64,000 bases of DNA from positions 1 through 64,000 of the IMG/VR virus record IMGVR_UViG_3300043640_000137. The stretch is one strand, 5' to 3'. Made by a program: the position numbers and the translations under genes. This stretch comes from a virus. Positions 20,479-23,337 of the stretch are shown here, piece by piece (the first letter of the stretch is position 1; each line of letters begins with the position of its first letter). The notes under the pieces were generated by a model that was not told the origin of the DNA, searched no databases, and worked only from the letters and a program-made list of their open reading frames with translations.

Positions 20479-21450
20479 ATGGCTTCAGTAACTCTCGCCG
20501 AGTCGTCCAAACTGTCTCAGGACCAGTTGGTCCAGGGCGTCATCGAGAACATCATCACGGTCGATCGTTTCTTCGACGTGCTGCCGTTCGACGGTATTTC
20601 GGGCAATGCTCTCGCGTACGATCGCGAAAACACGCTGGCCACTGTCGCGACGACCGGCGTCGGCGATGCGGACGGCGCGATTGGTCCGACCGCTTCGGGC
20701 ACCAATTCGACCGAGCGCTTGGCCGCGAAGAGTGCCGCGACCTTCACGCAGGTCACTTCGACCCTGACGACCATCATGGGCGATGCCGAGGTCAACGGCC
20801 TCATCCAGGCGACCCGTTCGAACCAGAACAACCAGACGTCGGTGCAGATCGCGTCGAAGTCGAAGGCGGCCGGTCGCAAGTTCCGCGACATGCTGATCAA
20901 CGGCGACGGCACCAACTTCACCTTCGCGGGCTTGCTCGCGCTCTGCGGCTCCGATCAGGTCGTGCTGGCCGGCGGCACCCTGGGCACGCAGGCGGCCCTC
21001 GCGTTCGAAGACATGGACGCTGTGATGGACCTCGTGGTCGATAAGGACGGTCAGGTCGATTACCTCGTGATGCACGCCCGCACGCTGCGCAGCTACAAAG
21101 CCCTGCTGCGCGCGCTCGGCGGCGCCAACATCGGCGAAGTGGTCCAGTTGCCGTCCGGTGCGGAAGTGCCCGCCTACAGCGGCGTGCCGATCTTCCGTAA
21201 CGACTTCGTGCCGGTCAATCAGACGGTCTCGACCTCCACGGCCACCAGTGTCATCGCTGGCACGCTGGACGATGGCTCGCGCAAGCAGGGCATCGCCGGT
21301 CTGACAGCCGACAGCGCCGCGGGCCTCATGGTCGAAGACGTCGGCGTCTCGCAGACCAAGGACGAGCGCATCTGGCGTGTCAAATGGTACTGCGGCCTCG
21401 CCCTCTTCTCCGAAAAGGGCCTCGCGATGCTGACCCAGGTCAGCAACTAA
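20479..21450 (+). CDS. major capsid protein, HK97-like fold
   Basis: 323 residues. The sequence begins with a helical N-arm, has the beta-rich spine (GNALAYDRENTLATVATTG) and the spine helix and P-domain pattern with VDYLVMHARTLRSYKALLRALGG, and ends with DERIWRVKWYCGLALFSEKGLAML, typical of HK97-type major capsid proteins without a large N-terminal prohead domain. A separate scaffold is encoded upstream. A strong terminator follows. Confidence 0.85.
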   Translation: MASVTLAESSKLSQDQLVQGVIENIITVDRFFDVLPFDGISGNALAYDRENTLATVATTGVGDADGAIGPTASGTNSTERLAAKSAATFTQVTSTLTTIMGDAEVNGLIQATRSNQNNQTSVQIASKSKAAGRKFRDMLINGDGTNFTFAGLLALCGSDQVVLAGGTLGTQAALAFEDMDAVMDLVVDKDGQVDYLVMHARTLRSYKALLRALGGANIGEVVQLPSGAEVPAYSGVPIFRNDFVPVNQTVSTSTATSVIAGTLDDGSRKQGIAGLTADSAAGLMVEDVGVSQTKDERIWRVKWYCGLALFSEKGLAMLTQVSN

Positions 21451-21530: not shown

Positions 21531-22196
21531 ATGGTAGATTTACAGCGCGTCGAACTCGTGCTCGTCGGGCCTTATGCCGGCAAGACGATCACCCTCAACG
21601 GACATCGCTACGTGGGCGGCATCGCCCGGATCGACGTTCGAGCGGAGCAGATTGAATTGCTTCTTCGGTCAGCGGCGCGCAGCTACAACGCGTACCCAGC
21701 AGGATCGGAAGCGCTGGCGCAGGCACAAGAGCGGAGCAGGGGCAATGGGCGCGCTGGTACTGACGAAGCGAAAGGGTCTGAAGATCGGCGACTACAGCCT
21801 GCTCTCGGCGAAGTTCGTCTCCGGCCCGAGCATCCCGCAGCCCAAGTACCAGACGTACACGGGCGCGGAGATGATGCAGATTCGCGAAGTGCCGTTTGGG
21901 ATAGTGCCAATCGGGACCGATACGCGGACACCCGGATACCTCGGCAAGCGCACCACGGGGAACACGCGGAGCACCATTCGGCCGCAGGGCCGGAGGTAAA
22001 CCTGAAGCTGCTGGCGTCCGTCAGGTCGCTCGATCACGACAACGATGAACTCTGGACCGCAGAGGGGCTGCCGAAGCTGAGCGCCGTCGAAGAAGCGTAC
22101 GGCAGCGCCGGGCTCACGCGCGAGGACGTCGAGACGGTGGCGCCGGCATGGAGCCGCGAGAAGGCATCCGCGGCAGCGCTCGACGCCCTGTTCTGA
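21531..22196 (+). CDS. post-capsid head protein with an overprinted linker
   Basis: 221 residues if read as one frame. Residues 1-70 (VELVLVGPYAGKTITLNGHRY ... SYNAYPAGSEAL) and about 155-221 (LASVRSLDHDNDELWTAEGLPKL ... TREDVETVAP) look like true small domains with high GC at third codon positions. The intervening 85 residues are low-complexity and polar, with random-looking third positions, and coincide with another gene in a different frame. No ATG, GTG or TTG opens the last domain, so it must be made by readthrough of this frame or by a -1 shift from the nested gene. Confidence 0.6.
   Translation: MVDLQRVELVLVGPYAGKTITLNGHRYVGGIARIDVRAEQIELLLRSAARSYNAYPAGSEALAQAQERSRGNGRAGTDEAKGSEDRRLQPALGEVRLRPEHPAAQVPDVHGRGDDADSRSAVWDSANRDRYADTRIPRQAHHGEHAEHHSAAGPEVNLKLLASVRSLDHDNDELWTAEGLPKLSAVEEAYGSAGLTREDVETVAPAWSREKASAAALDALF
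21745..21999 (+). CDS. gene nested out of frame in the post-capsid gene
   Basis: 84 residues in the +1 frame relative to the containing gene. The ATG is eight bases after GGAG. Third codon positions are overwhelmingly G or C here, whereas those of the containing frame are not. The product is basic with a beta-rich core (IGDYSLLSAKFVSGPSIP, then IREVPFGIVPIGTDT). It ends CGG AGG TAA, where a -1 slip would re-enter the outer frame. No family was recognised. Confidence 0.6.
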   Translation: MGALVLTKRKGLKIGDYSLLSAKFVSGPSIPQPKYQTYTGAEMMQIREVPFGIVPIGTDTRTPGYLGKRTTGNTRSTIRPQGRR

Positions 22197-22680: not shown

Positions 22681-23337
22681 ATGGCCGCGACTTTCACGAT
22701 CGAAGATGGGTCCGGCATCGCAAACGCGAATGCCTATTCGCCGGTCGTCTTCGTTGACGACTACCACGACTCCTGTGGCAACTCCGTCTGGCAGACGCTC
22801 GACGATAGCACGAAGACGACCTCGATCGTCCGCGCCACCTTCTACATCGACAAGCGGTTCGGCCGCAAATTCCGTGGGTACAAACAGAACATCCAGCAGC
22901 CGTTGCAGTGGCCGCGTCTCGACGCGTTCGACGACTCCGGCTTCATGTACGGCAATGACGGCAAGCTGCCGTTGCAACTCCTGAAGGCGTGCGCCGAGTA
23001 CGCGCTACGCGCCGCGCTCTATATGACGCTGGCACCTGATCCGCTGCTGCCGGCTCCGGCGCAGGACCTCTCCGATGCCGCGGGTCCGCGCGCAACCGAA
23101 ACAATCTCCGGCACCGTCACGCGCAAGCTGCAACGGGTCGGCCCGCTCGAAGAAGAGACTGCGTACGAGACCAACGCGATGTCGCTCTCGCGCCGGCAGG
23201 GCACCGAGGGCAACCGCGTCGTTCAATCCACGCTCGTCAACGACTTCAACATTCCCGAATATCCCGAGGCCGATATGTGGCTCGAAGAGCTTATTCGCAC
23301 CGGCGGGGTTGCAGCGTCGCTGAGCCGAGGCGATTAA
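22681..23337 (+). CDS. head-tail adaptor, DnaT-like family
   Basis: 218 residues. The sequence begins FTIEDGSGIANANAYSPVVFVDDYH and continues with LQWPRLDA and KACAEYALRA, which is typical of phage proteins annotated as DnaT-like ssDNA-binding but located at the head-completion position. The name reflects a sequence family; here a connector role is more likely. Confidence 0.65.
   Translation: MAATFTIEDGSGIANANAYSPVVFVDDYHDSCGNSVWQTLDDSTKTTSIVRATFYIDKRFGRKFRGYKQNIQQPLQWPRLDAFDDSGFMYGNDGKLPLQLLKACAEYALRAALYMTLAPDPLLPAPAQDLSDAAGPRATETISGTVTRKLQRVGPLEEETAYETNAMSLSRRQGTEGNRVVQSTLVNDFNIPEYPEADMWLEELIRTGGVAASLSRGD

Follow-up and report, generated by a model that had tools for sequence, protein, structure and literature searches.

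How should one read a phage gene in which the coding signal abandons its reading frame midway, only to resume it before the end? The question is raised by the locus following the major capsid gene in the virus record IMGVR_UViG_3300043640_000137, an 88.5-kb sequence of which we have analyzed the first 64,000 nucleotides (hereafter called the window; table 1). A sequence-only reading of the locus had described a three-part pattern, in which the coding signal moves from an outer frame to the +1 frame and back again, and had proposed either an overprinted sequence or a gene requiring a double frameshift. GC content by codon position does switch in mid gene and then back, as described: between about 21741 and 21890 the GC-rich position is the first of the outer codons, equivalent to the third of the nested codons (0.87-0.93), while GC at the outer third position falls to 0.43-0.47, from high values on both sides (0.63-0.80, and 0.77-0.90 from about 21921). 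These switches correspond to the start and the stop of a nested open reading frame (ORF), and the outer frame is, as had been stated, free of internal stops over its 221 codons. We consider, with a probability of about 95%, that two genes share this DNA: an outer gene encoding one protein and a separate nested gene translated by internal initiation.

Table 1. Features of the capsid-proximal locus, in window coordinates
Feature	Position	Strand	Details
Major capsid gene	20479-21450		phrog_212; upstream of outer gene
Outer gene	21531-22196	+	221 aa; phrog_6213 family; directly 3' of major capsid gene
Outer N-terminal alpha/beta domain	21531-21752	+	residues 1-74; AlphaFold2 pLDDT ~92-97 over residues 1-70
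Presumed Shine-Dalgarno site of nested gene	21733-21742	+	GGAG 21733-21736; AGGGG 21738-21742
Nested overprinted gene	21745-21999	+	84 aa, pI 10.8; +1 frame of outer gene; ATG 21745, TAA 21997-21999
Outer disordered linker, dual-coded	21753-21995	+	residues 75-155; pLDDT ~45-54; flat substitution phases in relatives
Most conserved nested motif, GTDTRTPGY	21913-21939	+	nested P55, G57, T58, D59 invariant in 16-sequence alignment
Outer C-terminal helical domain	22002-22190	+	residues 158-220, in N-domain frame; pLDDT ~93-97 over most
Head-tail adaptor gene Ad1	22681-23337		phrog_477; downstream of outer gene

The outer gene and its relatives

The outer protein matches the phrog_6213 profile along its full length (residues 8-215 against positions 7-192 of 194, E 7.2e-30), and its gene lies immediately after that of the major capsid protein and before the head-tail adaptor, the position expected for this family. 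As a tblastn query it matched 226 phage records, 80 of which have 80% or more of the query covered in a single frame. Among its homologues are gp19 of M6, gp58 of YuA, and MP1412_58, each encoded shortly 3' of the major head protein gene. The Yuavirus members of phrog_6213, a family of unknown function, have the same conserved ends, the same post-capsid place, and a single frame; their identity to the window protein is around 33%, and they too contain a nested +1 ORF. A single frame runs through N-terminal domain, linker, and C-terminal domain in Yuavirus and Vojvodinavirus, and likewise in dozens of uncultured phages; the three are therefore parts of one gene. Homologues of this kind had been taken beforehand as a potential indication of sequencing or assembly errors, an argument which does not apply here because relatives possess both the single outer frame and the nested one. 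The C-terminal domain, for which the sequence-only reading had invoked either readthrough of the linker or a -1 slip at CGG AGG TAA, requires no start codon of its own: readthrough agrees with the homologues, whereas no conserved signal accompanies the proposed slip.

The homologues of Bradleyvirinae and Pamexvirus (Ab18 ORF55, Bosavirus, Mallos, phiH1) have the same N- and C-terminal domains, again in post-capsid position, but no nested ORF that matches the profile presented below; Ab18, Epa5, and phiH1 have a short linker. The C-terminal domain also occurs alone, in proteins of phrog_10966 and phrog_17843; in phages 9g, CAjan, and MiCath it stands by itself at the start of post-capsid proteins. 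A search of viral contigs with the single query P0001 produced no matches, whereas an alignment-based search did retrieve loci.

An AlphaFold2 model of the outer protein, built from an alignment of 30 sequences, predicts an ordered domain at either end and disorder in the linker between them, the disordered stretch coinciding with the nested gene. The linker is of low complexity and its sequence is poorly conserved; its pI ranges from 4.1 to 5.9 among relatives, that of the window being less acidic than most. Fold searches with the outer protein returned nothing significant from the PDB and, among viral models, only relatives of unknown function. In the YuA record gp58, the outer gene, is labelled hypothetical, while gp56, gp57, and gp59 are labelled particle or structural proteins.

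A few observations concern the genes nearby. The YuA record carries a strong promoter of the -24/-12 type annotated within gp57, just upstream of gp58 (locus L006, 1225-1372). For the Ad1-like gene, Pfam returns the model DnaT_2, the name of which is likely to be misleading for annotation. The major capsid protein matches the SrpI-like encapsulin model of Pfam (E 6e-6), and a similar resemblance to encapsulins has been described for the Yuavirus Lydia (PMC11946847).

Constraint on both frames of the linker

The nested ORF recurs well beyond the window. In M6, a +1-frame ORF of 61 amino acids lies in the linker and ends with GVYPMGTDNRRS, where the window has GIVPIGTDTRTP; the Yuavirus product, with a predicted mass of about 6.5 kDa, includes the peptides YTATFSPTGTGLKPVTR and PGVYPMGTDNR. 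The ORF is also present in YuA and MP1412, in the Bordetella phages MW2, CN1, and FP1, in the Stenotrophomonas phages Bhz59 and Sonora, and in twelve IMG/VR loci retrieved with a nested profile. A profile of 16 nested sequences was then scanned in six frames over every locus collected, including 80 retrieved by the outer protein only. It matches 60 loci, some of which are copies of each other (setting aside the window copy and two deposits that are broken or chimeric leaves 45 distinct overlap sequences); every match falls within the outer gene, and 59 of the 60 are in its +1 frame, the sole exception being EKU1, whose deposit is broken at the nested locus. In that deposit (L034, PV844354) the outer gene is interrupted by frame errors and a feature is annotated on the opposite strand. 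Another record, ERS-1 (L035, PP337211), is labelled as an Escherichia phage and contains a segment resembling Yuavirus, which points to a chimera or to contamination.

Divergent ORFs scoring below the threshold were recognized by eye in the same place (L069, L071, L078, L086, L096, L060, and L065); they end with GTDRAP, or start with MSAYRISLQKT or MAAYKIRLART behind good Shine-Dalgarno (SD) sites, which suggests a distribution of the nested gene wider than that captured by the profile. A direct tblastn search with the 84-residue product of the window found no phage record, presumably because it has diverged too far from its Yuavirus counterparts, whose records are found by the M6 version. Scanned in six frames, the profile detected no standalone, non-nested homologue among the loci collected; a scan of bacterial genomes gave a single nested case (L116), together with a match due to chance (L117).

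The length of the nested ORF is uninformative, since 82% of synonymous shuffles of the outer gene of the window remain open, and we have discarded it as evidence. In contrast, the nested product of the window, itself one of the 16 training sequences, scores 85.6 bits against the profile, while 300 synonymous shuffles reach at most 26.7 bits (z 13). Across 35 loci, none of 10,500 shuffles of the outer genes attained the observed nested score; 24 of these loci lie outside the profile, having been retrieved by the outer protein, and score 21-90 bits (0/300 each, z 6-18). Hence, the nested protein is conserved beyond what the outer protein forces.

Substitution patterns agree with this result. In 30 close pairs, each outer codon position receives a similar share of the changes in the overlap, while the flanks have the usual excess at the third. 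In six non-overlapping close pairs, changes at the outer third position are 74/123 in the flanks and 9/44 in the overlap (Fisher P 7e-6), a drop in share from 60% to 20%, while those at the nested third position are 31/123 in the flanks and 23/44 in the overlap (P 0.001). Conversely, permuting the nested codons often closes the outer frame (summed log10 probability of all frames being open -22.8, over 43 non-independent sequences); the outer frame is open despite this and is therefore maintained too. Substitution phases and the reverse shuffle thus reveal purifying selection in both frames. An Rfam search for an RNA element in the overlap gave no match.

The nested gene had been credited with its own GGAG and ATG, and this holds in the relatives: the ATG is conserved, and sites of the AAGGAGGT type are found at the equivalent SD position. 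SD sites of at least 5 nt precede 77% of the nested starts in 43 sequences, compared with 10.9% of other ATGs and 8.3% of all positions; the sequences used in this test and in the reverse shuffle are related, so that the pooled values make the independent evidence look stronger than it is. The SD site of the window is itself weak, below those of most relatives.

Two genes or one

The simplest reading of the locus is internal initiation at the nested ATG. The outer gene would be translated from 21531 through 22196 into one protein, whose N-terminal domain is connected to the helical C-terminal one by a long, acidic, disordered linker, while an internal ribosome-binding site would direct translation from 21745, in the +1 frame, of a separate basic protein ending at 21999; we infer that both proteins are produced. 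The nested protein would set most codons in the overlap, which may be tolerated because the outer protein would need there just a flexible, stop-free, and mostly acidic spacer.

Could the two frames be joined instead by programmed frameshifting, with a +1 slip into the nested frame, a -1 slip back, or both, to yield fusion proteins? The window would allow such a fusion, its +1 frame being open for 69 codons upstream of the nested ATG, but in Yuavirus, Vojvodinavirus, and Sonora a stop interrupts this frame four codons before the ATG, and nested homology begins at the conserved ATG after the SD site. Moreover, straight reading of the outer frame joins the N- and C-terminal domains in the 60 loci, save the broken or chimeric deposits, and no conserved slippery site was noticed in a casual look at relatives. 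We consequently regard frameshifting as very improbable; overprinting, the other half of the earlier alternative, stands with the one-frame homologues and the conserved nested product. It is also distinctly improbable that the outer linker is passively read, so that only the terminal domains and the nested gene matter and the outer protein is perhaps made in two pieces. Its low complexity and variable sequence would suit this possibility, but the nested protein by itself would leave the outer frame open much less often than is observed. The SD-like GGAGGTAA that precedes the C-terminal domain in the window, at the nested stop, is not general in relatives, and therefore supports neither a -1 slip nor a separate start for this domain.

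Composition offers another route to a nested ORF, since an acidic, GC-rich linker with abundant Gly, Asp, and Glu gives a long basic ORF when read in the +1 frame. Shuffles of outer codons indeed often leave this frame open, with a similar positive charge (expected mean 11.6, observed 10.8). Yet chance openness cannot supply a conserved sequence, a start, an SD site, and the substitution pattern, and the window retains GTDTRTPG even if its outer RYADTRIPR departs from the usual GDGHxDxG, so that a mere by-product is hardly tenable. Sequencing or assembly indels within a single gene, of which the broken frame of EKU1 might be an example, have a practically negligible chance of explaining an arrangement that recurs in the isolates M6, YuA, MP1412, MW2, CN1, FP1, Bhz59, and Sonora and in many IMG/VR contigs.

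Role, origin, and significance of the nested gene

If the nested gene is translated on its own, what might its product do? The nested proteins are basic across relatives (pI 9.6-12.0), and their model, a beta hairpin with a tail, is of low confidence (mean pLDDT 70.6, pTM 0.26). The nested product has no match in PHROGs and no sequence or fold match in the PDB, and Pfam gave one weak, sub-threshold match in one of 30 members. From gene position only, one may tentatively propose that the product is an accessory protein, small and basic, which takes part in head assembly or belongs to the virion. The opposite charges of nested protein and linker are mostly a consequence of the frame offset; linkers nonetheless average a more negative charge than is imposed in this way (-9.7 versus -5.9 expected), though that of the window does not. 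It is unlikely that the basic nested protein binds the acidic outer linker, as a self-complementary pair made from the same bases and acting in head assembly; were this true, one stretch of DNA would encode two mutually binding partners of opposite charge used to build the head.

When the presence of the nested gene is mapped on a quick unrooted tree of capsid proteins, with the divergent ORFs recognized by eye counted as present, two changes are sufficient, the groups without it being Bosavirus/Pamexvirus/Mallos and Abidjanvirus/Epaquintavirus. Standalone homologues were not found, and there are outer genes devoid of the nested one; both facts fit an origin by overprinting of a linker that already existed, with later losses, the direction of change not being proven. 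Small virion proteins of phrog_19293 (ORF56 of Ab18, L013 1693-1923, and its Mallos counterpart, L008 2141-2377) are encoded next to outer genes devoid of nested gene, and start with a short motif resembling the nested TAxEM segment. A relocation of the nested gene to these sites was considered and rejected, for the resemblance is confined to a 12-column motif (probability 5.5%); it is probably due to chance, possibly to a shared binding motif.

Complete genes nested in another frame, with their own start, are known in phages, as for E within D of phiX174 and Rz1 within Rz of lambda; the case of the phrog_6213 linker is thus a new example, differing in that the outer gene belongs to the head module and is overlapped in its disordered linker only. 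The nested product showed no lysis features. In hepatitis B virus, the surface gene overlaps the spacer of the polymerase. This spacer lies between polymerase domains (PMC9093120), so that a second gene likewise covers an inter-domain spacer, in an unrelated virus with unrelated proteins, and the comparison is one of analogy only.

In the intact annotated records that we examined the outer gene alone is annotated, and none of the 60 phage records listed as matching the nested stretch of M6 has more than one annotated feature there, several carrying no annotation. The searchable literature, which did not include the original YuA proteome paper, contained no description of the nested gene. Being contained entirely within a gene read in a different frame, a protein-coding gene conserved across a phage group, with YuA, M6, and many Pseudomonas phages among its members, seems to have escaped annotation. 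Overprinting is here cleanly restricted to the disordered linker of the outer protein, and relatives lacking the nested gene are available for comparison; what an overlapping gene costs, how it arose, and what it does thus become testable in laboratory phages. Head modules that are thought to be fully annotated may conceal genes.
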